A program made the translations under genes and the position numbers. Under the pieces are notes generated by a model. It was not told the origin of the DNA. It did no database searches and saw only the letters and a list, made by a program, of their open reading frames with translations. A stretch of DNA of 64,000 nucleotides from Lunularia cruciata (Eukaryota; Streptophyta; Marchantiopsida; Lunulariales; Lunulariaceae). Below are positions 2,263 to 42,559 of this stretch, in pieces (the first letter of the stretch is position 1; the number at the start of each line of letters is the position of its first letter). The stretch lies in NCBI GenBank assembly GCA_948567375.1, contig OX419757.1:51643665-51707664 (forward strand), given 5' to 3'.

Positions 2263-2952
2263 AGTAACACCCATTTGTGCATGTGTGTAGTATTGTGATA
2301 TTCAGCTTGGTATTACAAGTACTTAAGAGATATTATTTATAGAGATAAAGGATGGTTCTATATTAGTCATGGTTAGCTAAAGTTAGTCATAGCTAAGATA
2401 GAGGGGACTTTACTTTAGAGGAAGTAGAAAAGATGAGCATCACTATTTTGGATTTTAGTGTGTTGACTTGGTATTATTCCTAGGTGTTTGGCTTTGAGGA
2501 AAGAGTTGAAAACTCTTGGGCCCGCAAGCCTTTTTGTTTTGGATTCTTCTTTAGTCCAAGGATAGCCCATGTGAAGGAATCCTTGACTTAGTGGTTGGGT
2601 CAAGATAAGACCACATGCTTAGGGGAATATGCTCATGTGAATGGATATTCCTTTCTACTTTTTGACTTTACTTGACTTTTAGTCTAGTAACTTGAGTTAC
2701 TACGGTAATTAGTAACTTTGGTATGTAACTATTTCACAAGTATATAAAAAAGGGGTGAGGAGGTACTCATCATCGTTTCATTTGCAACTATCTCTCTCTC
2801 ATTGAGTTCTCTAGTGAGCAATGTCTTGAGTCTTGGAGTGTTAGCCTTGGAGGAGTATGATGGAGTTGGGGTTCCTTGCCTTCTTAGTCCATGGTGCGCT
2901 TCCATAATAGCCATTAGAGGTTCATCTTGAGTGAGAGACAAGCCGGCTCATA
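2263..2952 (+). repeat. 3' LTR of family-A element
   Basis: This 690-bp sequence matches the LTRs at 17957-18645, 22702-23391 and 57761-58452 (those three inverted). The expected TG start has decayed to AG (AGTAACACCC) and the end reads CCGGCTCATA. A TATA-box candidate, TATATAAAAAAGG, lies at about 2742-2754 and would drive transcription of a downstream copy. The LTR abuts the pol gene of a different element at 2953 with no recognisable target duplication, because the 5' end of this element is outside the window. Confidence 0.9.
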
Positions 2953-3884
2953 GGATGACTAGTGTCTGTAAGACCGATAGATGTTTTATGGGTCTAATAA
3001 GAGAAGTCCAGAGTGCACAACTCAAGAGAAAAATTCCTGAGAAATTGAAGGATGTGGTGGATGAGTTTCAAGATGTCTTTCTTGATGATCTACCCTTAGG
3101 ATTACCACCAAAAAGGCGAGTAGATTACAAAATTGAGACACTTCCGAGGAAGCCTCCTTGCAAGACCCCATATCGCCTATCACCTCATGAGTTGGAGGAG
3201 TGTAACACTCAAATTGAGGAGATGTTGCAAAAAGGGTTCATCCAACCTAGTGTATCACCATATGGGGGCCCTATCTTATTTGTGAAGAATAAGGATGGTA
3301 CAATGCACATGTGCATTGACTATCGGGGTCTCAATCAGCAAACAATGAAGAACAAATACCCCTTACCTTGCATGGATGACCTGTTTGATCAACTCCATGG
3401 AGCAAGATACTTCACCAAACTAGACTTGCAAAGCGGTTACAATCAAATCCGAAATGCAAAGGAGGATGTGCACAAAACTGCCTTTCAAACCAGGTATAGC
3501 CACTTTGAGTATCTTGTGATGCCTTTTGGCCTCACCAATGCACCTGCCACTTTCATGGCCAACAACTTGGTGGCAGAGGTTAAGATTAACCCTAAATTCT
3601 GGCAAGAGATTCTGGCTGCTACAAAAACTGACCCACAGATTGTAGAAGCACAATCATCCAAAGGTGTTACCAGTACCCAAGGACTCACCTTTCGGGATGG
3701 CAGATTATGGATCCCAAATGTCCCAAAATTACGCACCACCATCCTAGTGGAATGTCATGATTTGGCCATTGCAGCTCATGTCGGAGTGGACAAGACCTTG
3801 GATGCAGTCAAGTGCCATTACTATTGGCCCAAGATGAGCAACGACGTGATGGACTATGTGTGTAGTTGCCTACTGTGCCAATAG
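2953..3884 (+). pseudogene. Family-B chromovirus pol: reverse transcriptase N-half fused by deletion to pre-integrase
   Basis: An open frame (2931-3884, its first codons lying in the preceding LTR) encodes the start of a Ty3/gypsy reverse transcriptase: VDEFQDVF linker, [45 protein letters not shown] and [13 protein letters not shown]. Directly after that Met it switches to a block ([17 protein letters not shown]) which in the sister copy at 11.4 kb follows RNase H. The catalytic YxDD box and all of RNase H are therefore missing, yet the frame stays open. The integrase zinc finger closes the ORF ([22 protein letters not shown]) before TAG at 3882-3884. It cannot encode an active polymerase. 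Confidence 0.92.
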
Positions 3885-4803
3885 AACAAAGCTTCTAATC
3901 AAGCTCCTATAGGGCTCCTTCAACCTCTCCCCACTCCTACCCAACGTTGGGAACAAGTGAGTTTGGATCTCGTCTGTGAATTAACCAAGACCACCTCAGG
4001 GTTTGACTCCATTGTGGACTTTGTGGACCGGCTCAGCAAAATGATTCATGTACGCCCTACCACCAAGGAGGTGACCGCTCCACAACTAGCTCAATTATAC
4101 TTAGATGCAGTCTTTGCTCACAATGGCTTGTCTAGAGTACTCATACCCGATAGAGGCACCCAATTCACCAACACTCTTTGGTTTCTTCAAAACCAAGTTG
4201 GCCATATCCATAGCTTACCACCCCCAAACAGATGGCCAAACAGAGCGGGCTAATCGCATGATTGAAGACATGTTACGCGGCTTCACCTTAGAAGAGCAAG
4301 AGAGGTGGGACACCCTACTCCCATTGGTGGAATTCGCTTACAACAATTCAATGAATGCATCCACCCAGGTCACTCCGTTCTTCCTCATGTATGGTGAGCA
4401 TCCCTTCACACCTTCTAGCTTGATGAAGATCCGTCTAGTGGCTACCAAGGTCAATGCAGTCAACACATTTGTTTCGAGAATCCAACAAGGTGTGGAGAGC
4501 GCCAAGCATAGATTACAGATTGCACAAAATCGACAGAAGCAGTATGCTGATGCACACCATCGGCACATGGAGTTCAATGTTGGGGATCAAGTGTGGCTAT
4601 CGACAACCAACCTCACATTAGTTGGACCTTGTAAGCTCAGACCTTGTTTTATTAGGCCTTTCTTGATTCTTTGTCGCATCGGCGCTGTGCCATATCACCT
4701 TGAGCTACCACCACACATGAAGATCCATCCAGTCTTCCATGTCTCCCTACTACGCAGATATGCTCCCCGATCAGGCCAAGGTCATTCCACACCAGACATT
4801 TGA
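3885..4803 (+). pseudogene. Family-B integrase core and C-terminus, frameshifted
   Basis: Integrase continues after the stop with QPLPTPTQRWEQVSLDLV (first catalytic Asp in SLDLV) and PDRGTQFT (second Asp). A frameshift at about 4170 moves it to the frame carrying YHPQTDGQTERANR (catalytic Glu in TERAN) and the GPY/F-like tail ending in a stop at 4801-4803. The sister copy (near 12055) has 14 extra bases at the frameshift point, so a 14-bp deletion explains it. The copies are otherwise very similar, suggesting that both are fairly young compared with element E. Confidence 0.9.
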
Positions 4804-5039
4804 CCTTGTCCGACACTCATTGATGGCACAGAGGAATATGAAGTGGAGCGGATTCTCCAAAAATGCATGCGTGGTACTCGCCACCCGCGGGTGGACTATC
4901 TACTACAATGGAAAGGTTACCCCCTCTATGAAGCCACCTAGGAGCCTGCTGCCAATTTGGCACAGCAGCACATTCATGCACTTGTGTTGGTGCAAGCATT
5001 TGAGCAACAATTGCACAACGAGGACGTTGCGTCTTAAAA
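4804..5039 (+). pseudogene. Family-B chromodomain
   Basis: Downstream of the integrase a frame reads EYEVERILQK, then VDYLLQWKGYPLYEAT, a stop where Trp is expected, and EPAANLAQ. This is the classic chromodomain order of chromoviruses, which bind modified histones and steer integration. The stop (TAG for TGG) inactivates the normally conserved W-E-P motif. The frame ends with TAA shortly before a protease fragment. The same domain recurs in decayed form at 12.70-12.91 kb and 46.32-46.53 kb. Confidence 0.85.
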
Positions 5040-5315
5040 CTGGAGGTAGAAATCACTTTGGAAAACAAAGATCACCAATAAATGTACCTCAAAGCCTTAC
5101 TGGCTCAATAAGGAAGCAAAAAAGCAAGGGAAGGAAGAAGACAAGCACACAAAGGTACCAAAAGGCAACCTCACAATTGATTGTAGTGAATGGGGTCCTA
5201 GAAGGCAATCAAGTGAGAGTGTTAATAGATTCGAGAGCCATAGAGAATTTCCTATCTCGCTCTATTGCAATAAGATTGGGATTGTGGTAATTGCATGCTC
5301 TCTAGGAGGGATGTC
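5040..5315 (+). pseudogene. Retroviral-type aspartic protease fragment next to the LTR
   Basis: The frame contains VNGVLEGNQVRVLIDSRAIENFL. It looks like the protease active site with D-S-G changed to D-S-R. Protease normally lies upstream of reverse transcriptase, so its position between chromodomain and LTR implies rearrangement. The segment ends in a purine-rich stretch before the LTR at 5316. The call rests on one motif. Confidence 0.55.
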
Positions 5316-6038: not shown

Positions 6039-6638
6039 CATGGCCATAGCTCATAGGAGATCAGATCTGGATGTTGAGGCTTCCACCTCTTATGTTGGTG
6101 ATAGAGATATCTTGGACTTTATGTGTGGAGCAATATAGGTAGATGCATATGCCGTAGTGACTAAGAGTGCCGTATGTGCTCAAGAGCCTAATGGAGCATT
6201 AGTGGAGTTGGATCCATGGAGAGTAGAGGTTGGTAGATAGGTTAGATTCCTCTAGTCTTTCACACTCTCCTAGGCTCTACAGATGACATCCATGGCTCCT
6301 AGATATCTTAGTGCAAGTGTGGTAGGTGGTGATGGAATGCATGATAGACTAGATGCTAGTCAACCACTTGTTACTACAAAAATTGAGTCTAGTATGATGT
6401 TAGGAGCAGCTTAGTTGATTATGTGATTCTGTTTATTCTTAACCAATGACATGTTTACATTGAGAGTTGACCTTGCTCTAATGTTTTGGTAGCTACCACA
6501 CTTTGTGAGACTAGGGATGATGTAGTTCCTACTACTAGAGAAAAGGTGGTTGATAGTGGAGTTGACTTGGTTGATGAGCATGGGATCCGCTCAACAACCA
6601 ATGGTTTATGGTAAGCAATAACAACTAGATTGGATGAG
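6039..6638 (+). pseudogene. Element E, upstream coding region, product unidentified
   Basis: Six hundred bases with weak, stop-broken coding character. The frames include runs such as SYVGDRDILDF, AVVTKSAVCAQEP and VVDSGVDLVDEHG, joined by point stops of the TAG and TGA type seen in the rest of element E. I recognise no domain; gag or another N-terminal segment of E is possible. It is bounded by a B-family LTR on the left and a B-type solo LTR on the right, so its link to E rests on strand, composition and decay style only. Confidence 0.4.
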
Positions 6639-7211
6639 TGTAATACAAGTAGCTAAATATATTATCTATAGGTGAAAATTGACTTGGTAACATTTAGAAG
6701 GATGTTGTGTACAATAGGCTAGGTAGATCAGACAGAAGTTTCACCAAAAGAGTACTTTTACTAATAGGGCAGAAGCCAAAAATAGCCAATATTAGAGGTC
6801 TAAATAGATGAATTAGGTCATGAAAATGGAAAGATTCCATCCCCTCAAGGTGAAATTTTTTCCTTCTCTCCCTTGTGATTTTCTCATCAAGAGCTTTCTA
6901 ATGGTACCTCATCCACATGATTCTGAGCTCCATGTAGGAAGATTCTCTAAAGATTCCCTATGGTCAAAGTTGTTTGACCAACTAGATAGGACAAGTACTG
7001 ACATGTCACCAATCGAAACAACTAATCCAAGGATGGAGCTTGCCAACATATTACCAATCCATGTATTTGATCCAAGTGTGGAGCTTCCTTTGAGTAGATC
7101 CTCTTTGCTATATAAGAAAGAGAAGGTGTTCCTTTGGAGCATCAGAGGATTGAGTGTTAAATCTGTGTTTGTATCTCTTTTGGAGAGTGCTCTTGTCCTT
7201 GGAGTATTACA
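6639..7211 (+). repeat. Family-B-type solo LTR
   Basis: It begins TGTAATACAAGTAGCTAAAT and ends GGAGTATTACA, 573 bp. It has the same length as the copy at 46551-47123 and resembles it more than the 723-bp copy. A TATA box (TATATAAGAAAG) lies at about 7109. There is no primer site downstream and no polypurine tract upstream, so it is a solo LTR. Flanks ATGAG and AGGAG could be a target duplication with one change. Confidence 0.8.
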
Positions 7212-8052
7212 AGGAGTTACCAATTAGACATGCCTTTGAGTGAGCATGCTCACACATGGGGTTGTCTTATTGGATAACCAAAGGGGGATTTTTCATTTAG
7301 TGGGACCTTTAAAGAAGGTCTATACACCATAAAGGTCTTATTAGACTTTGTTGCACAACCCCTTATGTTGGAGAAAACTATAGTTGTTGGTCTAGAGCTA
7401 TGGAAGACCAATGTGGAGAGGTGTTCATTTCAGATCCATAATTCTCTAGAGGTAATTCTACATAATATATCACATGTAGAGAGCTCATTGTCAAGATCCA
7501 GCCTGGTCATCCAACTAATAGCTCTATGGTGAAAGCTTAGGCCATTGCAATAATAATAAAGTCATATGATGTGCTAGTTGGTGGAGAACCAAAATACTTC
7601 ATAGGTTTCAATATTGACTATTGGGATGAGACAACCTCTTATAGACCAAGTTGGCAGTCATATGAGGGATAGGTATTTTGCCTTCCAGTATGCTTTAGTA
7701 GTAGTAGTAGTCTTGGTTCACTATAGTCAAGGACCATGGCATTAGTTTCAAATTTTAGTGGTTTTATTACTCAGCTTGGTGACTTATTGGAGAGGAATGC
7801 CCATGCAAAGGATACTCTAGTACCAAAGGAGATTACTCAAATTTGGAGTACAAGTGAGATTGTTCCATCTACCTTGGATGTTCCATTGTGGATTTTGAGG
7901 AGGCATTGTAGCAACATGCAAATCAGTTGGTGCAACAAGCTTGGAGTGGAACCTTTGTACCACTAGGAGACCAGCGTGAAGATGAGCCTTTAGAGTCTAT
8001 TACCTTATCACCTTTGGATACCACACTCATTTCTTGGTCGTATCCAATAGAG
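7212..8052 (+). pseudogene. Element E, region upstream of the methyltransferase
   Basis: A decayed plus-strand coding region. From 7571 a frame reads VLVGG, YFIGFNIDYWDET and SYRPSWQ. After it come MALVSNFSGFITQLG (7736 on) and a Gln-rich helix-like stretch leading through DQREDEPLESITLSPLD directly into methyltransferase motif I. The Trp/Tyr-rich YFIGFNIDYWDETTSYRPSW block looks like a conserved globular domain, but I cannot name it. Since no gag zinc knuckle is visible, this may be an unusual gag or a second captured domain. Confidence 0.5.
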
Positions 8053-8990
8053 GAAGTATATCTATTGGAGTTGTTTAGTGAGATTAGCACTAGACTAGAT
8101 GTGCTATTACAAGCAAGTATATGAGTACACAGTACTTGTTTGTAAAGAGAGATGAGATTGCTAGGTGAGTCTCTATGTATCATGTGGCACACTTGGCCTA
8201 TCAATATCTTGAGTTATTATTGATGTCAGCAATCAAGGGTCACCATAAGATCCTACAAGCATATTTTTTGCTGTTGGGGATGTAAGATTTGGAGAGATGT
8301 AGTCCCATTCATTTGGTGATTTTTGGATGGCCTTGTAAGAGACATATCTATGCTAGCTAAAGTCAAGGTCTCCAAGATCTCCATTCTTGTGTGTTTTGGG
8401 AGATATAACACATATTATAATATCTCTAGGTTCATCAGTCTATTTCTCCAACTTACATTTTAGAGAACTTCTCTCTTTGAAGGATGATTCTTGCACTCAA
8501 GTGGTGGTAAGTACACATCAAGTCTATTCTTGGATGGGACCTATCATGTTCTTGGATGTAGTGAGAGTGGGATCATAGGCTCATTATCTTCATCTTTGGA
8601 GGACAAACCTCTTACCTAGAGAGGTTCTCCAACATGCTTATGATGGGATTCAAAGACTAAACCACCTTATAGTTGATGACATTATGGATGTTGGATGCTA
8701 GTCTCAGATGGTGTTAGTGGCTGATGGGTCACTTATGGAAGTGATGAACCTTGTTGGATAGCCTAGAGCCGCTTTACCTGCACTTATAAGTTTTGTAGGC
8801 TCCCATGCTTTTTGAGAGCGAGGTCTTGGACTTGTTTAGGATTCATAATTAGAGCAATTGGTGGAACCCAACGCCAATGAGAAGGAGTATGCAATGGATT
8901 TTTTTACCAATATTACTATTATTATAGTAGAGTTAGAGGCATCCAAGCATCAAGTGTTAGGTCAAGCTATGGAATTGAACTATTTTACCT
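8053..8990 (+). pseudogene. Cytosine-5 DNA methyltransferase-like domain carried by Ty3/gypsy element E
   Basis: C5 methyltransferases flip out cytosine and attack it with a Pro-Cys thiolate. Their motifs appear here in order, across decayed frames. Motif I: VYLLELFSEIS (LELF codons 8065-8076; Gly of FxGxG is lost). Acidic motif II region: KRDEIAR (about 8145). Motif IV: LVIFGWPCK, catalytic Cys codon 8334-8336. The same frame continues through SQGLQDLHSCVFWEI, matching the GLxDxRSxLFWE run of Dcm-type enzymes. Motif VI: PTYILENF, Glu 8463-8465. Motif VIII: a stop in place of Arg, then AHYLHLWRTNL (about 8579-8611). C-terminal motif: NEKEYAMDFFTNIT (about 8876). Motifs IV and VI share one frame; VIII and the C-terminal motif share another. 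Size and order fit a stand-alone catalytic domain. It lies upstream of reverse transcriptase on the same strand. Many stops make it non-functional. Confidence 0.82.
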
Positions 8991-9423
8991 AGATTGTGAG
9001 TCTTGGGTTGGCAAAGTAGCGTAGGATATGCTTGATAAGCATCACCACTTAGACACTTATGAGCCCTATGCCTATCAAGATGATGCAAGCACATGTTGGG
9101 GGTGATGGAACAAGTGGACAAGTATTATTGGGATATAGCCAATGACTATTAGTGAGAGTGGTCTACTTGGGTTACACCCTTGGTCTACTTGGGATGCAAC
9201 TAGAGGACGTATGGAACTTATAGCCATAGCAGAAATAGTTTCCACACTAAGGTTGGGAACTCTAGTGGTTGGTAGCATGACATTAATGCTCCCAAGGGCC
9301 TAGTGTAGCAGCTGGTTAGTATATCTTCCACTCTTACATCAATTATAAGGATACTTGGGAGCCAAGTATTGGACCAAACCTTACAAGAGGAGGAAGATGG
9401 AGAGTTTGGAGGTTCTTGAGGAG

Positions 9424-9565
9424 CTACACAAGTTGTTTTGCCTTTAATATGAAAGATTTGGGTGCTTTGGAAGGGCATGCTATTTAGATTGAGCTTACTA
9501 GTGACACATAAGTTTTTTGACATCCCTATAGATATAGTGACATGGAGAGAGTATTGATTTGGAGC
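9424..9565 (+). pseudogene. Element E reverse transcriptase, N-terminal fragment
   Basis: The frame reads SCFAFNMKDLGALEGHAI, a stop, IELTSDT and PYRYSDMERVLI. This corresponds to the Ty3/gypsy segment just before the fingers domain, usually FxFSxxDLG then IxxxxxxPxxxRPYRxSxxE. The palm with the catalytic YxDD box should follow but is absent: within about 20 bases the homology jumps to the thumb/connection side. A deletion of several hundred bases is inferred. Confidence 0.7.
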
Positions 9566-9569
9566 TAGA

Positions 9570-10345
9570 GTAGAGATCTTTTTGAGACATTTGTTGGAAG
9601 TGTTTGTGAAATTGAGATCTTATAATCTCAAACTACATCTTGGGAAGTGAAGATTCTTCTATGAGCAGGTTGAGTATTTGGGTCACAATATTTACCTTGG
9701 AGGACTTGCTGTTTAGCAAACCAAGGTGGAGGCTATTGCATGTATTTCTTGACCTACAGATGTGAATAGAGTGTAATCATTCCTTGGGTTGACAAACTTC
9801 TATTGCCATTATGTTAAAGGATTTAGTGCCATTTCCAAGGCCTTGACAAAGCTAGTCAAGTTTACATAAGATTGATGTTGGGGAGATGAGCAAGAGGGAG
9901 CTTTTACAAAGCTCAAAGATAGGTTGATATTTGCTCATATTCTTAAGAGACCAATCAAAGGATGACCATTCCAGGTTCACATTGATTGGAGTATGTTGTG
10001 TCTTGGAGCAATGCTCACCCAACATGATGATGAGGAGAAGGAGTTTGTGGTGGCCTATGCTAGTCATTCCAATAATTTAGAGGAAGCAAAGTATAGTCAA
10101 ATGAGGAAGAGTGCTCAATAGTAATATGGGTCATAACACATTTCTGATGTTATATATTTGGTAATCCTATCATTTCATCATTGATCATCAACCATTGAAG
10201 TGGTTGATGTACTCTGATAAGTTTTCAAGGAAACTTGCACAATGGGCTTTTGATTTTACAAGAGTATGATTTCATAGTTATTCATAGACCTAGATTGGTG
10301 AACCATGATGAAGATGGGTTGAGTAGAAACCCATGTCCCAACCAA
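9570..10345 (+). pseudogene. Element E reverse transcriptase connection and RNase H
   Basis: Homology resumes with FVKLRSYNLKLHLGK-like and VEYLGHNIYLGG sequence, then the conserved SFLGLTNFYCHYVKGFSAI block and AFTKLKDRLIFAHIL. RNase H follows with FQVHIDWSMLCLGAMLTQ, where the first catalytic Asp is kept, and EFVVAYASHSNNLEEAKYS. It ends with a decayed FVIIHRPxxxNHDEDGLSR segment. At least ten stops and several frameshifts break it, many at codons one C-to-T or G-to-A change from sense. Confidence 0.82.
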
Positions 10346-10639
10346 TAGCATCAGACTAAAGGTTGAGGAGATGATGCCAAGTTGGTATGCATCTATCTTT
10401 CTATGTTTATTTTTTGAGGCTTAGCATGCATCTACCTTTCTATGTTTATCTTTTGAGGCTTTGGTGGTATCTCTCTCAACGCATACAAGAGGAGTTATTG
10501 AGTTCACAAATCCAAAGGGTGAGGATATTGGTATAATTTAGCAAGACATTCATGATGATGTCTTAATGATGGATTATTTTCACATTGGTATTGTAAGTGG
10601 CACAATTGGTACTAAGGAGAGAAACCATGTTCTCTAGTA

Positions 10640-10819
10640 AGCCAAATGGTTTAGATTGGAGGGTAGATACCTTCTTTGTGTATGGAAGGATGGTAGAGTG
10701 TGAGTAGCACCATTTCCATTTTAGAGACCACAATTGGTCCGTCACTCTCATGAGGAGCTATGACATTTTGGAGTAAAGTGTACATATAGCTTACTCTTGA
10801 ATCATTATTGGTGGCACGG
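10640..10819 (+). pseudogene. Element E integrase zinc finger, first half
   Basis: The sequence reads RHSHEELCHFGVKCTYSLLL and NHYWWHG, the His-His half of the integrase HHCC zinc finger. It is cut at 10824 by the insertion of the B element. The Cys-Cys half (RCVVCDQ) is found in phase directly after the target duplication at 13451-13455. Confidence 0.8.
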
Positions 10820-10824
10820 TATGC
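10820..10824. repeat. Target-site duplication TATGC, left copy
   Basis: The pentamer TATGC at 10820-10824 is repeated at 13451-13455, exactly flanking the LTR-bounded B element. Collapsing the two copies restores the integrase reading frame of element E. Confidence 0.9.
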
Positions 10825-11025
10825 TATAATACCAAGAGCTAGCCATATGATCTAGATGTGAAATTCGGTTTGGTAACATCTAGAATGATGTTATATATGA
10901 TGGTCAAAATAGATCAGATAGAAGTATCACCAAAAGAGTACTTCTACTAATAGGGCCGAAACCCAAATAGACTTGAGAACCTTAGAACCAATAGCTAGAC
11001 ATATGATTTAAAGATGAGAATTGGT
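10825..11025 (+). repeat. Truncated 5' LTR of nested B element
   Basis: It matches the first 200 bases of the B LTR, starting TATAATACC (TG decayed to TA), and breaks off at GAGAATTGGT. The R-U5 part is missing. Confidence 0.85.
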
Positions 11026-11440
11026 GGTATGAATTGGTGGTGAATTGAAGTGGTATGACCCAAAACGTCCAATCAAGTTGGCTATAGATGCATCAAGTGT
11101 AGCAATAGGAGCAGTCCTACAACAAGAGTGGCATGACGGATGGCATCTAATTGCATATTTCTCTCAAAAGTTGTCACCAGCAGAGTGCAACTACCACACC
11201 ACAAAATGAGAAGAGCTGGCCATCGTTCTAGCAACCAAACATTGGAAGCACTACTTGGGCGAGAAGGCATTTGTAGTAGAGACAGAGCACAAACTTCTAG
11301 TCTACCTCAAGACGTAAAAGGATCTATCTCATCGCTAAATTCGGTGGGAAAAGTGGCGAAAATGCTTCAACATGACAATCACCGATATGGATGGTAAGAA
11401 GCAACTTGCAGATGCATTCACCCGCATGCAAATGGCCAAC
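11026..11440 (+). pseudogene. RNase H of nested B element
   Basis: The frame reads PIKLAIDASSVAIGAVLQQ with the first catalytic Asp, HLIAYFSQKLSPAECNY, a stop in place of a residue before EELAIVL, then KHYLGEKAFVVETEH where TDH is expected, so a catalytic residue is changed. It ends in MTITDMDGKKQLADAFTR, the usual RNase H C-terminus. The block after it shows what was deleted from the 2953-3884 copy. Confidence 0.85.
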
Positions 11441-12690
11441 AACTTGGTGGCAGAGGTTAAAATTAACCCTGAATTCTGGCAAGAGATTCTGGCTGCTACA
11501 AAAATTGACCCACAGATTGTAGAAGCAAAATCATCCAAAGGTGTCACCAGTACCCAAGGACTCACCTTTTGAGATGGCAGATTATGGATCCCAAATGTCC
11601 CAAAATTATGCACCACCATTCTAGCGGAATGTCATGATTCGGCCATTGCAGCTCATGTCGGAGTAGACAAGACCTTGGATGCAGTCAAGCGCTATTACTA
11701 TTGGCCCAAGATGAGCAACGACGTGATGGACTATGTGCATAGCTGCCTACTTTGCCAATAGAACAAAGCTTCTAATCAAGCTCCTGCAGAGCTCTTGCAG
11801 GGCTCCTTCAACCTCTCCCCACTCCTACCCAACGTTGGGAACAAGTGAGTATGGATCTCGTCTGTGAATTACCCAAGACCACCTCAGCATTTGACTCCAT
11901 TGTGGTCTTTGTGGACTGGTTCAACAAAATGATTCATGTACGCCCTACCACCAAGGAGGTGACCACTCCACAACTAGCTCAATTATACTTAGATGCAGTC
12001 TTTGCTCACCATGGCTTGTCTAGAGTACTCATCACTGATAGAGGCACCCAATTCACCAGCTTATTTTGGTGAACACTCTTTGGTTTCTTCAAAACCAAGT
12101 TGGCCATGTCCACAGCTTACCAACCCCAAATAGATGGCCAAACAGAGCGGGCTAATCGCATGATTGAAGACATGTTACGAGGCTTCACCTTAGAAGAGCA
12201 AGAGAGGTGGGACACCCTACTCCCATTGGTGGAATTTGCTTACAACAATTTAGTGAATGCATCCACCCAGGTCACTCCATTCTTCCTCCTTCTTCCTCCT
12301 TCTAGCTTGATGAAGATCCGTCTAGTGGCTACCAAGGTCAATGCAGTCAACACATTTGTTTCTAGAATCCAACAAGGTGTGGAGAGCGCCAAACACAAAT
12401 TACAAATTGTGCAAAATTGACAGTAGCAGTATGCTGATGCACACCGTTGGCACATGGAGTTCAATGTTGGGGATCAAGTGTGGCTATCGACAACCAACCT
12501 CACATTAGTTGGACCTCAGAAGCTCAGACCTCGTTTTATTGGGCCTTTCTTGATTCTTCATTGCATCGGCGCTATGGCCTATCACCTTGAGCTACCACCA
12601 CACATGAAGATCCATCCAGTCTTCCATGTCTCCCTACTACGTAGATATGCTCACCGATCAGGCCAAGGTAAGTCCACACCAGACATTTGA
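11441..12690 (+). pseudogene. Integrase of nested B element
   Basis: It starts with a pre-integrase block ([19 protein letters not shown]), then the HHCC region ([22 protein letters not shown]). The core has SMDLV and TDRGTQFTS (catalytic Asps) and QIDGQTERANR (catalytic Glu). The tail is FNVGDQVWLSTTNLTLVGP through HPVFHVSLLRRYA. Breaks are a TGA at about 11570, TAG at 11759, TGA at about 12070 and a stop pair at about 12420. The DDE residues are still present. Confidence 0.9.
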
Positions 12691-12699
12691 CCTTGTCCG

Positions 12700-12910
12700 A
12701 CACTCATTGATGGCACAAAGGAATATGAAGTAGAGCGGATTCTCCAAAACGCATGCGTGGTACTCACCACCCGCGGGTGGACTATCTACTACAATGGAAA
12801 GGTTACCCCCTCTATGAAGCCACCTGGGAGCCCGCTGCCAATTTGGCACATGCACTTGTGTTGGTGCAAGCATTTGAGCAACAATTGCACAACGAGGACG
12901 TTGTGTCTTA
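12700..12910 (+). pseudogene. Chromodomain of nested B element
   Basis: It reads EYEVERILQ and then loses frame through a single missing base relative to the copy at 4.85 kb. In the shifted frame the WKGYP and EAT motifs follow. It ends just before the polypurine tract. Confidence 0.8.
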
Positions 12911-12924
12911 AAAGGAGGGAGGTC

Positions 12925-13450
12925 TGTAATACCAAGAGCTAGCCATATGATCTAGATGTGAAATTCGGTTTGGTAACATCTAGAATGATGTTATACATGA
13001 TGGTCAAAATAGATTAGATAGAAGTATCACCAAAAGAGTACTTCTACTAATAGGGCAGAAATCAAAATAGACTTGAGAACCTTAGAACCAATAGCTAGAC
13101 ATATGATTTAAAGGTGAGAATTGGTTTGGTAACATCTGGAAGGATGTTACACATGATGGACTAAACAGATGAGAAAGAGGTATCACCAAAAGGAGACTTC
13201 TACTAATAGAGTAGGAACCGAAATATGCTTGAAATCTTTGAAGGCAATTTCGGAGGCCTAAACGGATGAATTAGGCCTTGAAAATACATAAGTGCCTCCC
13301 CCCCCCAAATAGAGGAAAGGTTGGCCTTCCCTCCCTCCACTTTGTCTCATTGAGAGCTTTCCAACGGTACCTTACGTGATCCCTTGGGGCATTGAATGTT
13401 TGAGTATGCAATCTGTGTTTTCTCTCTTCTCTTGTCCTCGGAGTATTTCA
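12925..13450 (+). repeat. 3' LTR of nested B element, internally deleted
   Basis: It begins TGTAATACCAAGAGCTAGCC and ends GGAGTATTTCA (526 bp). Compared with the 723-bp copy it lacks about 190 bases from about 13380, the segment that holds the TATA-like sequence. It is followed by the right TATGC duplication. Confidence 0.88.
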
Positions 13451-13455
13451 TATGC

Positions 13456-14480
13456 ACACCAATTTATAGTAATTTGTTGCTAGATGTGTGGTATGTGATC
13501 AAGTTAGAGCATCATTTAATGCTCATATGCCACAATTATATCCATTACCTACATGGGATTGGGTTACCATAGGAGTTTGGATGTTGTTGGACCTTTATCA
13601 TTGACTATGAGATACCATCAATATGTTTTGGTTATGGTGGAGCATTTCTCCAAGTAGATTGAGTTGGTAACACTTCTTGAAAAGTCCAATGAAGGGACAG
13701 CTTACTCATTCTTGGATTGGGTTCTTTGTCATTTTGGTGCACCAATTGAGGTCTTGACTGATCAAGGTATAAAGTTCTTGGGGGAATTTCAGCTCTTGTG
13801 TGAAAAGGGCTTGATTGATCATTGTATCATCTCCCAATATCACCTTGAGGTAGATGGCTCAATAGAGAAAGTGGTTTAGATAGTGAAGAGAGTATTACGT
13901 AAGTATGGTTTGTAGAGAGGCCACTTGGGAGATTGGGATCTCCAATTATCTTGGTTAGCCATGGGCTATTAGTTCAGCCGGCAAGCCTTGTTAGCATCCT
14001 ACTCTCCTTAATTTATACTCTATGGACAAGATCCAAATTTACCTATAGCCATTTGCTGAGATGCTATTGTAGTTTTGGACTTAGATGATTCAAACATATG
14101 GGCAAGTGCATGTTCCCAATGGGCAGAGATCTTTCAGAGAGTGATGCCAATGGCTTTTGAGAACTTGTTAGTTGCTCAACATAGGGATATCTTATGCTAT
14201 GCTACCATTCAAGGAGGAGGAAATAGACCCTTGATCTATTAATTTCATCCATATGACTATGTATATTTATAGCAAATAACACCAACAACACTTGATGTTA
14301 CTACAAGTCACACTATCTTGAGAATGTGTGAGATTTTGCCTTTTGGAGTCCTCATGTTGGAAGTATGTGATGGTGTTGTTTGGAAGGATCATGTGTGCAT
14401 TTGTGCACCATACCACCTCCTAAACATTGATGGCACTATGGACCCAAGCTTGGCACTTGTACATGTAGGCCTACATGTGG
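13456..14480 (+). pseudogene. Element E integrase, second half
   Basis: The Cys-Cys half of the zinc finger (RCVVCDQ) is in phase with the His-His half left of the nested element. In one frame the core gives SLDVVGPLSL (Asp 13580-13582), IEVLTDQGIKFLGEF (Asp 13760-13762) and VDGSIEKVV (Glu 13865-13867), a D,D-34-E spacing, so all three catalytic residues survive. A stop breaks SK-IEL at about 13655. Further on come LYGQDPNLPIA-like sequence and LCYATIQGGGNRPL, then ILPFGVLMLEVCDGVVWKDH and APYHLLNIDGTMDPSLA. The last block is an unusual tail that leads into the PHD-type finger. Confidence 0.85.
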
Positions 14481-14621
14481 TGTATGTTTTGCAACTCTTC
14501 TAGTGGAGTTGCTACTATATTGGTGTATGATAGCTATTTGAGAGGATGACATATGACATGTTTGAATCCTTCTCTCACGGTGGTTCCTCAAAGACAATGG
14601 TTATGTCCTAGATGTACTTGA
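14481..14621 (+). pseudogene. PHD-type zinc finger at the integrase C-terminus of element E
   Basis: One frame gives the C4HC3 order of a PHD finger. Cys 14481 and Cys 14490 (CMFC); Tyr 14526 and Tyr 14535 in a YDSY unit where CDSC is expected (TAT is one change from TGT); a stop at 14547 where Trp is usual; His 14550 and Cys 14559 (HMTC); then WLCPRC with Cys 14604 and Cys 14613. Spacings are Cx2C-x11-[Y]x2[Y]-x4-Hx2C-x14-Cx2C, within the PHD range. The frame ends with TGA at 14619-14621. It is one base out of phase with the upstream tail, so a frameshift lies near 14475. PHD fingers read histone H3 tails, so here it could play the part of a chromodomain. No other PHD is seen in the window. 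Confidence 0.8.
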
Positions 14622-15450
14622 CCTATAGCTAGTTCATCCTTTATGTGTATAGATTGTAGACAAGTGACTAATGATGGAGCTTGATAGCACCTAGCCTCTT
14701 GATCTTTGCCCACCATAGGGTATACCACATACTTGGAGAGATGGCTATTTGGACTTAGAGGGACCTAACCGCCAACTAGGATGGTAATTGTGACACTTTA
14801 GAGTTCATGTATGACTTATGTGTGAGTTGTGCTTCTAAAGTGTATGATGTGGATATTGATGTATGTTGTGTAGCAATGTATATATGCATAACAATTGTCA
14901 CAATATTTGTAGTGTTAAAGCTAGGTTTTCTCAAATGCTAGAGTGGTAGTGTTGGTAGTCATAGATATTTTGGTAGTTATTCATGGACTACTTGTTGGTG
15001 GTCTGATTTTATATTAGGGCTATTGATCACATGGTGAGACCTACCATCACTTGCATTATTTGCATTGTCGGATGTGCCACCAGTGGTACCATTAGGGCTA
15101 GAGATCTAGGTCAAGCGGAGGGGTATGCCTTTAAAGTGCAACTCAAGAGAGCTCACTTCTTTGATGTTGAGCCTTTGAGTTTATGGCTATGGTGGACAAA
15201 GGCCAATGAGCATCACCTAGAGTCTTTTAGCTGGGTGTGGCTTGACTATAATCAATGCCTGGTTGTTGGTAGAATGTTGAGTGATGATCAAGTAGAGATC
15301 TATTTGAATGTGATTTGAGTGCAAGAACAAATTGATTATTGTGGCACTTTCATTTCAGTATGACTTATGTGTGAGTTTTGCTTCTATAATTTATGATGTT
15401 GACGATGAGGTATGGAGCAATGTATATATGCATTGCATTGCAGGCAGTTT
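14622..15450 (+). repeat. Element E 3' region with a duplicated block
   Basis: After the PHD stop, about 800 bases without clear coding. A block of roughly 100 bases at about 14785-14890 (TTGTGACACTTTAGAG, then GACTTATGTGTGAGTTGTGC, ending near GCAATGTATATATGCAT) is repeated with changes at about 15333-15440, 548 bases downstream. The first copy starts soon after the coding end, so it may mark an LTR start or an internal duplication. An ORF at 15031-15318 between them is not recognised. Confidence 0.45.
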
Positions 15451-18699: not shown

Positions 18700-19533
18700 C
18701 TATGATACATCTTCAACTTATCATGGTTAATCCTATCAAAGTGTCTTCCTCCCAACTCCTTGAGATCATTGGTGTAATTGCCCCACACCTTCTCCACTAT
18801 GAAAAGTCCAAAGTACTTAGGCAAAAAGTTCTTTTGTACTCTCTTGAATCGAATATAATCAAACAACATTACCCAATCACCTTCTTTGAAAGACTCTACC
18901 TTCTTCTTTCTTGCCTCTTGTCATAACTCTCCTTTTTTTCCTTTGGGCTTGCTCCACTCAAACCATAGCGACTGCTCTTGCCTCTTCCAACTCCATGAGT
19001 TATTCCTTCCTTGACTTCTTTGAATCACCTCCTTGTGCTTTCTTCAATCTCCTATGAATGCTTTGGAAGGTAGGAAGATCAAAGTGAATAGGAAGGGTAG
19101 ACTCAATACCATATACCAATTGAAATGGAGAATATCCTATGGAAGTCTTCATGGTTGTCCTATACTCCCACAAAACTGCATGAATCCTCTTGTCCCAATG
19201 ATGTTTAGCCCCCTCTATTTCTGCATCTTTGGCCAACATCATGCACAAGGTTTGATTGGTTCTCTTTTCCAAGCCATTGGAATTTGGCTTATAGGATGTA
19301 GTTACTCTATGTGTGATAGAGAAATACCATAGCATGGATGTAGTGATGCTTCATGTAAACTCTCCTCCTCTATCATAAACCAACTCCAAAGGGCATCCAA
19401 ACCTAGTGATAGTGCATTCATAAAGAAATCTACCAACTTCATCTTTATTCTTGTCCCTCAATGGTCTAGACTCAACCCACTTGGTAAAGTAATCAATAAC
19501 TACCATAATGTACCGATTGTTCCTTGGGGTCAA
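18700..19533 (-). pseudogene. Integrase C-terminal half, family A
   Basis: Starting at the deletion junction, the sequence runs TPRNNRYIMVVIDYFTKWVE, RFGCPLELVYDRGGEFT (second catalytic Asp), then a break, ITHRVTTSYKPNSNGLEKRT (Glu of the motif kept) and HFDLPTFQSIHRRLKKAQGG. The zinc finger and first catalytic Asp, which precede TPRNN in the copy at 1.35 kb, are deleted. It continues in pieces to the polypurine tract. It is very similar to the integrase at 1380-2214. Confidence 0.9.
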
Positions 19534-21148
19534 ACTTGTTGCTTGTTTGCCATGCTCACTACAAATGTTGAAAGTCTTGAGGGTATCATACCCAACTTCT
19601 TCATCAACCTTTCTAACATGGCATTCACTATTGATCCTCCATCAACCAATGCATCCTTGATGTTGTGACCATTCACTCTCACATCAATCTTAGAGGCATA
19701 TTCACAAGCCTCCCATGGTGCTGGCTTGGCATCCACCACCCCCATTGATATTGGAACGTTTGCCTTCTTCTTCCTCTTGCTCCTTGGAGAACTCAAACCA
19801 CCTCTAAGCTCCTTTCTCCAAGTAGGATTCAAAGCAATCAATTGGCCCACTGTGATGTTAGCCTTGTGACTACCAACATCCTCCAACACGTTGTAGTTCC
19901 ATTGTTGCTTTGAAATCCAGAAGTCCTCTATTCCTAACTTCTTCCTTAGAGTCTTTGTCGTTGATGGTGTTGAGGTGCAAGTGCTCCTAGTAGACATAGG
20001 AGTATCCTTGCTTGGAGTAAATCCTTGAAAAGAGTGAACATCCTCTGCAAAATGAGCTCTCTTCTTCTCTTGTGCCAAAAGCTCCAAATTAAGACCCTTG
20101 GAGTTTGAGCACTCTCCCTTCTCAAACTTGCTCTCAACCACATCTATGGATGCTATCCCCTTACCTTTGTTTGTATTAGGAGCCACTTGGGTTTCACTTT
20201 GTCCCTCTTTCCCTTTATTGGCTCTCTCATAACCCCTTCCTCCATGGTAAGTAGAATTTAGGCAATTCCTTTGGATATGACCTCTTCCTCCACAACCAAA
20301 ACAATTTCTCTCATTGAAATTGTTGGTTGGTTGGACTTCTCTATATGGATAGTTTCCATAACTCCTATGCCCTCTCCCCAAATTCTGATCCACCTCTCTC
20401 TTCTCCCATAGTTGCATCACATTGATGTTGAGATCTGCAAGTTGTTCTATGATGGTTTGAAGTGGATCTTTTGGTGGAGGTGCAAGAACTGGAGCAACTA
20501 CTACTTGTGGTGCAACCCTTGTCACCAAAGTATCAGAATTTCCACCATACTTGTACCATTGAGGAGGATGCACAACCTCCTTCACCACCAAATCACTCTC
20601 ATCTCTTTCCAAACTCTCCTCCATACGAATTGAAATCTTGATAGCTTCAACCTTGGAAGAAGGTTTTTCATATCTCACCTTGCTTCTTATTTGTAGTCTC
20701 AACCCTCCCACAAAATTCTTGGTGAGCATGGCTCCTATGCCAATCATATTAGTCTCCATATCATCCCCACCCTTCCTCAACACTATACAAAATCTGGACT
20801 CTAACTTTTCCACTCTTTCCACATAGACTCTCACTTTCTCTCCATCTCCTTGTTTGAGAAAGTTAAACTCACTCATCAATATCTCATAACTCTCATATGG
20901 AAAAAATCTCTTAATGAGTGTTGAAATCAAACTCTCCCAAGACTCTTCTTCTCCATCTCTCCTCTCTCTCTCTTTTGGTATTCTGACTCATACCATGTAA
21001 GTGTTGCATCCTCAAAGAAATCTGGTAATAATAAGGCCCACTCATTCTTCCTCCTCTCATTGTTTCCTATGCAAGCTCTCTTGAAGTCTCTCACAAAGGC
21101 CTCCACATCTTTTCCATCCTTGCCAAAGAAAATTGGAAGTTTCCCCAT
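19530..21148 (-). pseudogene. Gag and protease of minus-strand family-A element
   Basis: Two overlapping frames form the gag. The first (21148-20927) starts MGKLPIFFGKDGKDVEAFV and holds a capsid-like EWALLLPDFFEDATLTWYES block. The second (20930-19530, 466 aa) continues with TLIKRFFPYESYEILM and LESRFCIVLRKGG. A CCHC zinc knuckle, CFGCGGRGHIQRNC (C-x2-C-x4-H-x4-C), marks nucleocapsid. The C-terminal part has DVRVNGHNIKDALVDGGS, the protease active site with D-G-G in place of D-T/S-G. The frame stops right after the protease, where reverse transcriptase would begin. A frameshift at about 20935 splits capsid. Confidence 0.88.
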
Positions 21149-28544: not shown

Positions 28545-29174
28545 TATATCATTAGCTAGATATATTATCTAGAGGTAGAAATCTTCTTGGTAATAACTTG
28601 AAGGATGTTATGTATGATGGTCTTAGTAGATCAGAGAGAGGTGTCACCAAAAGAGTACTTTCACCAATAGGATAGAGGTTGAACACACCCAAAAGAATTT
28701 AGAGCTAATTTTGGAGGCCTAAACTAAGGAATAAGGCCTTGAAAAATGGAATATTCTCCTCTTCCAAGGAAAAATATATTGCTTTCTCCTCTCCTTTTCT
28801 GTCTCATCAAGAGCTTTCCAACGATATCTCATCCATGCTATTGTGAGTTTCCTATAGGAAGATTCCCTAAAGATTCTCTCTAATCAAACTTGTTTGACCA
28901 ACCAAATAAGACAAGGATTGACATGTCACTAAACCATGTAGTTGATCTAAGGATTGAGCCTAATGACATGTCACTAATCCATTTATTTGATCCAAGAGCC
29001 TAGCTCACTTTGAGTGGATCTTCTTTGCTTTCCCTTTAAGTGGATCCTCTTTCCTATCCTTTGGGGCATTGGAGTATTGAGAGATGAAGTATTGAGGGAT
29101 GAAGTCTTGTGTTTCTCTTGGGGTTTCTTCTCTTAATTTTCTCTTAGGTCTTCTCCTATCCTCAAAATATTACA
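28545..29174 (+). repeat. B-type solo LTR inserted behind the family-C primer site
   Basis: Starting near ATTAGCTAGATATATTATCT, it follows the B LTR pattern (GGTAATAACTTGAAGGATGTTATG, ACCAAAAGAGTACTTTC) and ends AAATATTACA. It separates the primer site at 28502 from gag-like sequence after 29.6 kb. The start is uncertain by about 15 bases. Confidence 0.7.
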
Positions 29175-35639: not shown

Positions 35640-36800
35640 TGTCTGAAACACCTCGGTCCAATTTTTTTATATATTACTGCAATCAGGAACGCCGAGGGGT
35701 TCGTGGTGGTTCTGAGCGGCTTTTATACTCAATGCTATATTATAATCTTGGGATGTATCAACCTTCGCTTTTAACTTTGAGTCTATGTCGCTCATGTGTT
35801 TTCTGTCAATTCCTATTGCTTAGCTTTACATCTATTTACTGTGAACCTATTCACTTTGCTTCCGCTCTCATTTCTCCTATAATCTTGGTCGACGTGAGAT
35901 GCGTTTATAAGATGAACTTATACCAGAGAAGGCAATAGACATCCAATATCACCCATCGGCGACAGGAGAAATCTTATATATCTTTAAATCTTGCGCCATG
36001 TTGCGAAGTGATAGGAAATTCAAATTCACCTGGGCCAGTCTCTGAACTTTCTGCCTACTCCATTAGAAATTCTTCTCCTCGTGAAAACAGCAGCTTTAAA
36101 GTGCTTTAGCAGCAAACACTTCGCATCGATCATGCCAAAGGAGAAACGATGTTTTCTTAACTTTTGAGTGTTTTCCCGATTAGTCTGAAACGTCCTGAGA
36201 CCAATGACATGCTTGACACTATTCTCCACAGGAAAGTACTGTACGTAACTCTCACGGACAGTTGCTGTGGACTACAGTTCCTTACCCCGGTACTCTGACT
36301 CTACATGAGCATCTCCAGTTGAAGCCATGTGCTCCTGGTGGAGCTCGACTGGCGCTTTCGTAGCCCTAACACAGTCTCCTCTAGTCAAGCTGGCCATACA
36401 AAGTAGGTTTAAACTTTCACCAGTTACCGTTCTGACACAAAGGTGAGATGAAGTTAAGGCGTTTTGTCCGAAAATTGATGGGCTGGCAATACCTTAGGAC
36501 TGTAGCCTGTTCATGCTTTAGGGGCCCAATATGAACTTAAGGTCCGGCGGTTTGTTGGCTCTCTTAACCATGGGGAAGAAAGAGACCTTGGATTGAGGCG
36601 ACATGGAGAAGAATCGGTCATTGTCTAGAAGTCGATCGTCTGTACGAGGTACAGATTACCGTTTATTTGCTGGATTAGGTTAAATCGCTGATTGGTAAAT
36701 CTTTGCTTCGGTCGAAGATCCATGCTTCCAATTTGATTTTGATTGAATATTTGCAACAACTTCTAGTTAATGTGAATGATTTGACTACAGGAAGACTGCC
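35640..36800. other. 3' flank of the gene island
   Basis: GC and CpG are clearly higher than in the transposon-rich flanks, but I find no convincing coding frame (the ORFs at 35639-35938 plus and 36026-36229 minus look random). It probably holds the 3' untranslated region of the minus-strand gene and some unique spacer. No clear AATAAA signal was found for the minus strand near 36.7 kb. Confidence 0.4.
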
Positions 36801-39800
36801 TTATGCCCCCAGTAGACCTACGAACAGTCCGTCTTTATTTCCTTCAGGATCAGGCAAGTCGTTGACAACACTACTTTGAATATACTGTTCTACTTCGGGC
36901 CTTTGTTGCCTCCAATGGTAATGTCGCCTCTCATATGAAACCTCCTGTCCATCTCGTCCCCCATGGAATAGTTGTGGTGATCCCTCCTCAGTGCTCTCTG
37001 GCTGTGCCACAATTTGCCTCAATGATTTTAATGACTCAAGTAGGACCATAGGGGTCATGTCACCAGCATTGCGACTCTGCGATTCTACATGATTACGAGT
37101 GTCATGTGACACACCGCTTGCTGCCTTTCCTAGCCTCTCTGCAGCCATCCATGAGCAGGTGCATGCCAGCGGATTCATCCTTCCGTCAAATTATGCAAGT
37201 GGTTAAACGTTCCAAGAGTCTCGTAAACATGTTAACACTAATTTCTGTGATCATCATTATCTTACTAACGTATGCACAAAGGCTGGTTGCAAGCTTTTCA
37301 ATCTAAGAACTTGGATCCACATTTAACGGAATTAGAAACGAGTCAAAATTGGCGGGGAAAAAGTTTACGCAAGGTGAGGTTAAGGGCTTCACGTGCGCTG
37401 CCAGACAAAGTTACAACAAAGCATTAGAGCCTGAACCATTACCGGATCCGTGATTGATATCTTCTTCAAAGATGAACCCGTGCATCTCACGCTGCTCCTT
37501 CTCTCGAATCTTCGAGAATGGATGAGATGCAGGTGGGCCCATTCTCTCACGGCCCTCACGCCCACGCAAGACCTACCACACATCCAGTCGTGACCAAAGA
37601 TCATAAAGGCACATTGTGTCTGACATTCCAGCAGTACCGTACACTCAATTACCGTAGAGAGCAGGTGAATATAGGTCAGGGACTGTTATTACTTGTCGCT
37701 TATGCGTCAGGAACTTCCTGAACTATACCTTCAAGTGAGCCCTTTTCTTTTGAATCTCAGGCCTGAATGTACATTCCTTCATCTCCAAAGATTGTCTCTC
37801 TTTTCGCAGAGCTTCAATGTCAGACTGCCATTTAGCTCTGTCTGCTAGGATAATTTTGTACCACTGACGACTTGAACTGCATTTCGTAAACACAACAGTC
37901 TCAGACAAAAATTAAACAATGTAAGTGCACCAATAAGAACAGAGCTAAGAGCCGAGAGCAGTCGTGCTTTAGACAGCAGAGTGATAATTGCGTCGTTGTG
38001 CTTGGGCAGTGAATGCAACCTGAATCTTCTTCTTCGAACAGCCAGGTTCCGGGAGTATCGATCCATCTTGAATTGGAAATGCATGGGGAGGTCATGTTTC
38101 TTGTGTTTGAGAACCAAGTGGACTGTACCTGTTTTACGTGCTTTTTCCTGTGATGATGCAACACCAAGATCAATCTTGAAGACACAAAATCATATGCAGC
38201 ACATTGAAATGCAACTCCTTGAAAGTTAGGAGCCCTTTGTAGACAGCAGGATGCTCATTTAGATCTTTCATAAAACTCATCATCGAGAAAATGAAGGCTT
38301 GTTAAGCAGACCAGCAATCTTCTTCCCTTCGCAGACATTACATTCCCGAGTACCATTTCCGTGTTCAACTTTCAAATTCAGTGACCTGGTTACTAACTAA
38401 TTACAAGCTACCTGGATTGCCTTCATTGAACTAACAAAAGATTCGAAGTCGATAGGTTTTTCGCCTCCCATCTCTCTTAACCTAGCAACGTCTTCAATTG
38501 CATCGTCAGAGAGTTGATTCAAATCCGCAGTTCCCAGCTCCACAAACCCGTCCTGGACACAAACCCACGATCGAGTATTGTATATGAATTGAAAACATGA
38601 TTTTGTCAAAGCCGATGAGCTGAAGTGCTGACGGTCTTGCAGGTTCTGAGGAGACCTTGTCTTTGTCAAGGTAATCAAAGATCTGATGAATTCTCCTTTC
38701 TTTGATACTATCAAGCAACTTCTGGGATCTTGAGCCCACATACTGACAGCTTGCCTGCTCCTTTTTAGTCTGCATATCTCTCTCAGCAAGCCACTGCTTT
38801 TTCCTGTCCATTGTATCTTTGAGCTGATATAAAAATTCTCCAATTGGCAGATCGCTAGTGTTTCTCTGCATTCATCACGTAGAGGAGTCAGCACTACTGG
38901 CCTATACTTTTTCTTATAGCTTGATTCGTTCTCCTTAGTACAAGAGACCATGAATGTGCCACATGTGGATGAGAGCAGAAACCGTTCGAAGAGCGAAGAG
39001 TCCACACCCACTGAGGACCGAATCGACGCAAACTAACCGCATGGAAATCTAAACAGCTAAGCATGCAAGTCTAAGCAACTAGGACTTGCCTCAAAAATGT
39101 TGCAATGCGGAATTAATAAAGTTATATATCCCAGAGATGGTGAAGATTGCATTCAACGTTAAGTCATCATAAAGCAAAGAAGCAATTAGCAAAGAAGCAT
39201 TCATTCCGGATCGATTGTGAAGTAACAGACATTATTGCTAGTTTCTATTAAAGGGGAAAGAGCGAAGTGTATCAGGACTGGATATGCATATCACAATGTG
39301 CTCTATGAGCGCGTGCGGCCTAAACACTGAACATAAGAAGGACGCAGACGGACCATCGGAGTAAGCATGTAACCACGAATGACTTCATCAGTGCCGAAGT
39401 AAGTGAGCGAACGCCAGTACCCCTGATACCGAGTTTCTGTTTTAGGGGTGAATGTTTCATGTAGTCTAGAGATGTTACTGAAGAACATTTTTTCTCGTGT
39501 GGACTTGCGTTCCAGCTAATATTGATACTAATCGCATTTTCTGGACCAGCCAGTTCAAAGGCATTTCTCTCGGTCCACATAAGCAGTGGCAGTGCCAGCA
39601 TCGAGAGCTGATTCTAGGAAATCTTCCGCACATAACTCTTCTGTGGAGATATTTTTCTGGCCTCACAGATCTGGGGACAAATGGCGAAACCTTGGGGCCG
39701 TAACTGATGTGCTTTTGATATTTGTGGTAGGACTTCTTCTGAATTGTTGCTGAAGTCAGCAGTTTCTTACATCATATAAGGGTTTGCGTCCCGTAACTGG

Positions 39801-42525: not shown

Positions 42526-42559
42526 GAGATGACTGCTTTTCACATCCTTTTACGTTATG

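Follow-up and report, generated by a model that had tools for sequence, protein, structure and literature searches.

A decayed Ty3/gypsy retrotransposon with a DNMT3-type cytosine methyltransferase domain in the liverwort Lunularia cruciata

Introduction

Cytosine methylation is a main means by which plants silence transposons, and a retrotransposon equipped with a de novo methyltransferase (MT) of its own therefore reverses the usual arms race. Elements of this kind are already known. The closest published one is KnitGypsy-Dnmt3 of Klebsormidium nitens, where a Dnmt3 domain lies within a Gypsy pol gene flanked by DIRS-like repeats, an arrangement which was taken to have been acquired independently by the lineage of K. 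nitens, while the MT of the SymbioDIRS-Dnmt3 elements of dinoflagellates methylates CG sites in yeast (de Mendoza et al. 2018, PMC5890265). A paper from 2025 refers to earlier streptophyte and dinoflagellate reports (PMC12344493). Here we describe an MT-bearing Ty3/gypsy element in a 64,000-nucleotide stretch of the genome of the liverwort Lunularia cruciata (contig OX419757.1, 51,643,665 to 51,707,664), hereafter called the window. A first-pass annotation of this DNA had mentioned LTR-type elements (LTR, long terminal repeat) with an MT from dinoflagellates and Klebsormidium, and these precedents are real.

Results

The window holds what is almost certainly a copy, now dead and decayed by C-to-T changes, from a Ty3/gypsy retrotransposon family with a DNMT3-type C5 MT between protease and reverse transcriptase (RT). 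A cytosine-5 MT domain had been proposed at 8053-8990 on the basis of conserved motifs, and these are found as described, with GWPC at 8325-8336 and LEN at 8460. A frame-tolerant search, as suggested at the time, gave significant matches: the MT of the element's family matches 8130-8477 in frame 3 (tblastn, E 1.5e-37) and 8375-9007 in frame 2 (E 5e-67), and a Calypogeia MT matches across three stretches from 8056 onwards (E 1.5e-74). The best score among 200 mononucleotide shuffles of 7900-9100 was 22.3 bits, compared with 219 and 134 bits for the real sequence; at a very lax threshold, some match appeared in 106 of the 200. The window MT is broken: two indels shift its frame, and it contains 14 in-register stops.

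Numbers preceded by L designate loci or contig pieces of this analysis and those preceded by P proteins from the protein search; L040, a less-decayed copy of the family, served as reference. Window positions 7212-9598 are collinear with L040 3584-6008, covering protease, MT and RT, without large gaps (blastn), and beyond a gap in the RT the match picks up again on the same strand and runs to the 3′ end of the element at about 15433. The MT thus belongs to the Ty3/gypsy element on the same strand, as had been claimed, and an unrelated insertion is excluded. Its position upstream of the RT was correctly read in so far as the order is protease-MT-RT, but the window copy lacks the RT segment that surrounds the YxDD motif, L040 6008-6444 (with YIDD at 6397) having no counterpart.

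The catalytic motifs PC, ENV and RxR are present in this order. Among solved structures the closest in predicted fold and in sequence are DNMT3A/B, and DNMT3 comes first among the matches listed in the structure searches. The domain had been labelled Dcm-type; alignment and structure searches instead give DNMT3 enzymes as its nearest relatives, which also rules out a Dcm or phage origin. In IMG/VR, 50 loci match the MT at 26-47% identity, mostly over part of the domain.

The Pfam C5-methylase profile gave 123 scored matches in the Lunularia genome. The strongest (L001, C7:31988337-31991654) is the host DNMT3 gene, with 61% to MpDNMT3b; it groups with MpDNMT3b and a Riccia DNMT3 (support 100), Calypogeia lying outside. 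The second (L002) has what we read as the rearranged motif order of a DRM. For Marchantia, the accessible text of a 2018 paper lists only MET, CMT and DRM enzymes (PMC5784723). A search with the MT of one retrotransposon copy revealed at least 125 copies, namely the query and 124 at 95-97% identity (13,202 first-look candidates), and the domain is free of stops in 76 of the 125 copies listed.

Intact copies were anticipated to carry MT and RT in one open reading frame (ORF). Copies open through protease and MT do exist, with open frames of up to 1448 amino acids, but MT and RT are split by a UAG and belong to separate ORFs. In the four copies taken whole (L039-L042 with L044-L047), ORF1 encodes gag (CCHC knuckle), protease (motif LLDSGA) and MT, and ends at the UAG; ORF2 encodes the RT (YIDD), RNaseH, integrase (H2C2, rve) and, at the C-terminus, a PHD finger. 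The ORFs of these copies are broken, at places that differ from copy to copy. RT, RNaseH, integrase (Integrase_H2C2, rve), PHD and MT all score above the Pfam cut-offs, and the Ty3/gypsy order protease-RT-RNaseH-integrase is present, the protease being recognized by the LLDSGA motif only.

The ORF1/ORF2 junction was checked at 41 loci (L003-L043). It was not found in L003 and L004; the other 39, representing 34 distinct places, all have UAG at the junction, followed by CAG-CCA (37) or CAG-CUA (2), which is the CAR-YYA context. For comparison, CARYYA follows only 4 of the 2350 TAGs in the window. UAG-CARYYA is a type I readthrough context, with tobamoviruses among its users (PMC5382211), and a stop between gag and pol has a precedent in Candida Tca2 (PMC2194720).

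The element begins with TGTCAC and ends with CGACA. Exact 4-bp target duplications flank four of four copies and six of ten further ones, that is, 10 of the 10 with both ends found; among the remaining further copies, two matched the internal B1 rather than the true end and two lacked the 3′ end in the piece taken. Two identical complete LTRs are not present. Instead, all four full copies have the split arrangement A1...B1-A2-B2, with a 449-bp A1 on the left and, on the right, B1, the dinucleotide GC, A2 and B2. Both B repeats measure 107 bp, and A2 likewise has 449 bp, except for 458 bp in one copy. Leaving aside this length difference, 4 to 12 positions distinguish A1 from A2, and 0 to 3 distinguish B1 from B2. 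This order, A-coding-B-A-B, is that of the DIRS type, for which PMC5890265 gives A-coding-B-A. A G-rich purine stretch lies upstream of B1, and the B1-GC-A2 junction contains the perfect palindrome GACAGCTGTC. With respect to the DIRS/PAT group, the element has the split repeats, and in place of a tyrosine recombinase and integration without duplication it has Integrase_H2C2, rve and 4-bp duplications. In one copy, an extra piece made of the B1 end and the A2 start lies within the 5′ region (L039 982-1115) and may have been left by recombination at the B-A junction.

A scan of bacterial genomes gave seven loci, one of which (L118) is a 9285-base contig filed under a cyanobacterial metagenome-assembled genome (MAG). 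Since it has the appearance of a whole gypsy element, we read it as eukaryotic contamination. Its MT is 51% identical to the liverwort MT across residues 1-316. A gag knuckle and the MT share one frame, followed by TAG-CAA-TCA and an open RT-to-PHD frame of 1047 amino acids; the protease pattern by which LLDSGA is detected in the liverwort elements gave nothing there. In the non-coding part, the B-GC-A site equals that of the liverwort over 15 bases (ACGACAGCTGTCACG). The proportions of synonymous (pS) and nonsynonymous (pN) differences between the liverwort element and L118 are 0.73 and 0.35 for the MT and 0.79 and 0.21 for the RT. As L118 shares both features, the readthrough context and the B-GC-A junction have been kept despite near-saturated synonymous sites. 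The first 30 bases of L118 recur at 9159-9188, a self-overlap of the contig that may stem from the collapse of the element's repeats during assembly and that does not prove a circle.

Relatives of the MT were sought among 5.8 billion proteins, of which the 7997 candidates sharing most words were scored. At least 107 relatives were listed: 15 from Marchantia polymorpha, two each from Calypogeia fissa and Sphagnum, one from K. nitens, one from the chlorophyte Monoraphidium, one assigned to a bacterial MAG and the remainder lacking an organism name. The Marchantia, Calypogeia and Sphagnum proteins show 49-76% MT identity over the matched parts and several also contain protease, RT or integrase-PHD; they are unnamed or hypothetical in their sources, many being partial gene models. 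In the MT tree, 72 of the 107 relatives passed the coverage and length filter (35 were left out) and, together with the liverwort copy, form a set of 73. The outgroups were 27 other MTs, the host gene and 26 hand-picked from the 108 usable matches of one search. All 73 retrotransposon MTs form one clade (IQ-TREE support 100, branch 1.31; FastTree 1.0), although a closer cellular MT may be absent from the tree because the outgroups were hand-picked from a single search. The clade includes the K. nitens MT (P0092) and the Monoraphidium MT, indicating common descent with the MT of the KnitGypsy-Dnmt3 lineage relative to the outgroups sampled.

Two layouts occur. The MT precedes the RT in four Marchantia proteins (P0015, P0051, P0064, P0080) and, as we read its sequence, probably also in P0092, which contains at most the start of an RT, none being reported by Pfam. 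It follows RT/RNaseH or precedes the integrase in P0050, P0052, P0055, P0060, P0062, P0066, P0088 and P0094, and follows RT/RNaseH in the Monoraphidium P0089, a model without integrase. In P0062, P0066 and P0088, where the MT precedes the integrase, the PHD finger still follows the integrase. Seven of the nine proteins with the second layout are in the MT tree (all except P0088 and P0094) and fall into a single 15-member group inside the retrotransposon clade (100; FastTree 0.995), the second layout being seen in these seven of its 15 members. The RT tree (35 hand-picked sequences; the window frame 2931-3884 was too short to be included) contains many weakly supported deep nodes (20-63) and agrees only partly with the MT tree: P0051 has an RT that groups with one from Calypogeia and an MT that groups elsewhere. 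Because of the weak nodes and this discordance, co-descent of RT and MT is not established.

The window copy was compared with four family members at the 5138 sites on which these agree, and it is 81.6% identical to them there. C-to-T changes affect 149 of 292 CG, 188 of 488 CHG and 235 of 1774 CHH sites; changes of other kinds at the same positions amount to 4.5-6.6%. Such a pattern is what earlier methylation in CG and CHG contexts leaves behind, as on silenced plant transposons, and it does not indicate the source of the methylation.

The features of the decayed element are collected in Table 1. Its left side is also split, by ~13.8 kb upstream of the window part. Other Ty3/gypsy remains, with no MT seen, lie at 298-2058, 2931-4803, 11430-12930, 19530-20987 (minus strand) and 61558-62175 (minus strand). 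Positions 36000-44000 form a GC-richer island (0.44-0.47) with many short minus-strand frames, possibly exons of at least one host gene; one frame (42211-42549) has a weak match, below the cut-off, to the PFU ubiquitin-binding domain.

Table 1. Parts of the MT-bearing Ty3/gypsy element (window positions unless a contig is named)
Feature	Position	Strand	Basis
MT-bearing Ty3/gypsy copy, window part, with nested insertions inside	6040..15433	+	blastn to L040 2989-9656, in pieces
Further 5′ part of the element, outside the window	C6:51634514-51635894		upstream piece L125 850-2230 matches L040 1604-2992
ORF1 piece between gag zinc knuckle and protease	6040..6639	+	80% match to L040 2989-3589
LTR-like insertion in the element	6639..7212	.	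similar stretches at 46551-47101 and 28546-29088
Protease region and linker, decayed	7212..8055	+	collinear with L040 3584-4431
Decayed DNMT3-like C5 cytosine MT domain	8056..9007	+	translated search; limits from alignment to the less-decayed copy
UAG position dividing ORF1 (gag-protease-MT) from ORF2 (RT-RNaseH-integrase-PHD)	9306..9308	+	sequence, family comparison
RT and RNaseH remains, to about the zinc-binding part of the integrase; YxDD stretch missing near 9590	9309..10860	+	
Nested insertion, pol of a different Ty3/gypsy family	10860..13451	.	91% match to 3555-5049
Integrase and PHD-finger region, decayed	13451..14786	+	match to L040 from 7662; domains read in L041
Repeat B1	14787..14893	+	
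Repeat A2	14896..15338	+	
Repeat B2, 3′ end of the element (approximate end)	15338..15433	+	match to L040

Discussion

The identity of the element together with the following mechanism makes up the explanation that we consider best overall and moderately probable; for the mechanism by itself, which is an inference from the sequence features, we would put the chances at about even. ORF1 would be translated into a Gag-protease-MT polyprotein, and occasional readthrough of the UAG in its tobamovirus-type context would add RT, RNaseH, integrase and PHD finger. Because the MT lies in ORF1 before the UAG, it would be made with each Gag polyprotein and be present in the particle at the time of cDNA synthesis. 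There it might methylate the element's own cDNA de novo, before or at integration, so that the new copy would mimic heterochromatic DNA of the host or be shielded. The split repeats A1...B1-A2-B2 would permit the cDNA ends to be rejoined as B2|A1, conceivably in a circular intermediate. The DDE integrase could then cut on both sides of the 2-bp GC in GACAGCTGTC, producing CA-3′ ends and an insertion with 4-bp duplications. The suggestion of the first-pass annotation, an element that marked, or protected, its own DNA, is plausible.

Several observations weigh against this interpretation. Some motif residues are less well kept, with the Asn of ENV in 58 of 70 sequences, the motif I Phe in 50 of 60 and the two Arg residues of RxR in 64 of 68 and 61 of 67. 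The gag and protease profiles remain below their cut-offs (16.1 bits against 24.1, and 12.4 bits in L008 against 20.3), the assignment of both relying on the motifs CCHC and LLDSGA. Four of the 14 copies sampled could not be scored for target duplications. The C-to-T decay in CG and CHG implies that the family is methylated and, presumably, silenced by the host whatever its own MT does. Within the genome, pN/pS of the MT is 0.27 (30 copies), a value biased low because the copies were ranked by MT protein score; for the N-terminal part of the RT it is 0.62 (24 stop-free of 29 pieces from the same loci, pairs differing at 60 or more bases being left out). Finally, no methylation was detected in yeast with the KnitGypsy-Dnmt3 domain on its own, a result from which its authors drew no conclusion because human DNMT3B failed too (PMC5890265).

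The MT might act on the host instead, on chromatin near new insertions or competing elements, or it might damp its own family and so spare the host harm, the PHD finger perhaps choosing the chromatin. A PHD finger at the C-terminus of the integrase in all four full copies and in L118 would fit such a role, and damping to the benefit of the host was raised in the discussion of PMC5890265. We nevertheless consider this rather unlikely, since the location in the gag ORF, judged from the domain order and the UAG junction, would put the MT into particles and not on chromatin.

A further question is how often the MT was acquired. The existence of two layouts could reflect repeated capture by related gypsy elements, once in the slot between protease and RT and once between RNaseH and integrase. 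Given that the 73 MTs form one clade, as judged against hand-picked outgroups, with the second layout nested inside it, we think repeated capture is unlikely: one capture suffices because a move within the element explains the nested layout, and one capture followed by a move within pol is the simplest reading. In its widest form, our proposal would be a single ancient capture of a DNMT3 by a Ty3/gypsy lineage, kept or passed sideways across chlorophyte and streptophyte algae and bryophytes, with the MT made at Gag level through readthrough, a DIRS-like, circle-type cDNA methylated before integration and a retroviral-type integrase acting at the palindromic B-GC-A. We put this forward tentatively, as somewhat less likely than not.

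The MT might also no longer methylate DNA and instead have a structural role, or bind nucleic acid, within the Gag polyprotein, or methylate RNA. The yeast result with the K. nitens domain, qualified by the failure of DNMT3B, is in favour of this, as is the Gly which in the alignment occupies, in motif I of the liverwort MT, the place of an Asp in DNMT3A. A loss of DNA methylation is quite improbable, though, in view of the PC, ENV and RxR residues mostly kept across the clade, a predicted fold that fits active DNMT3A/B and a pN far below pS in the comparison with L118. A chance resemblance, or a host DNMT3 retrocopy fallen into the element, can be dismissed given the E-values, the shuffles, the collinearity, the presence of the domain in at least 125 genomic copies and the position of the host gene L001 across a split of support 100 from the family MTs.

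Our search of the open literature, with most subscription journals and supplements outside its coverage, found no report of MT-bearing elements in bryophytes, and a printed statement on land plants (PMC6338049) is contradicted by the liverwort and Sphagnum elements. As far as our searches show, what is new are the liverwort and Sphagnum members and their single clade with the MTs of Klebsormidium and Monoraphidium, the placement of the MT on the Gag side of a UAG, the combination of split repeats with 4-bp duplications, and the palindromic B-GC-A junction common to a distant relative. The family has at least 125 copies in one liverwort and has relatives in Marchantia, Calypogeia and Sphagnum; as Marchantia is a laboratory model, the role of the enzyme for the element is directly testable. 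DIRS-like repeats together with a DDE integrase and exact 4-bp duplications call for a replication model of their own. If the widest form of our proposal is true, replication would follow a hybrid cycle, with methylation of the cDNA prior to its entry into the genome.

How does the liverwort family compare with the systems described so far? CrREM1 of Chlamydomonas is a Ty3/gypsy element with a PHD finger, as is the liverwort family, and to our knowledge it has no MT. What is left of its integrase, with a GPY/F module and a chromodomain, is truncated and lies in reverse frame (PMC2774666). SymbioDIRS-Dnmt3 is alike in having a Dnmt3 in pol and DIRS-like repeats, but encodes a tyrosine recombinase ('Phage Integrase') where the liverwort element has a DDE integrase. 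KnitGypsy-Dnmt3 shares with the liverwort family the Dnmt3-type MT in a Gypsy pol and the DIRS-like repeats in combination with Gypsy domains; the words 'readthrough', 'PHD' and 'protease' are absent from the accessible main text describing it (PMC5890265). P0092 is 38% identical to the liverwort MT over 65%, and its gene model seems, as we read it, to have the MT running into the RT, whereas the liverwort MT lies upstream of a UAG, in the gag ORF.
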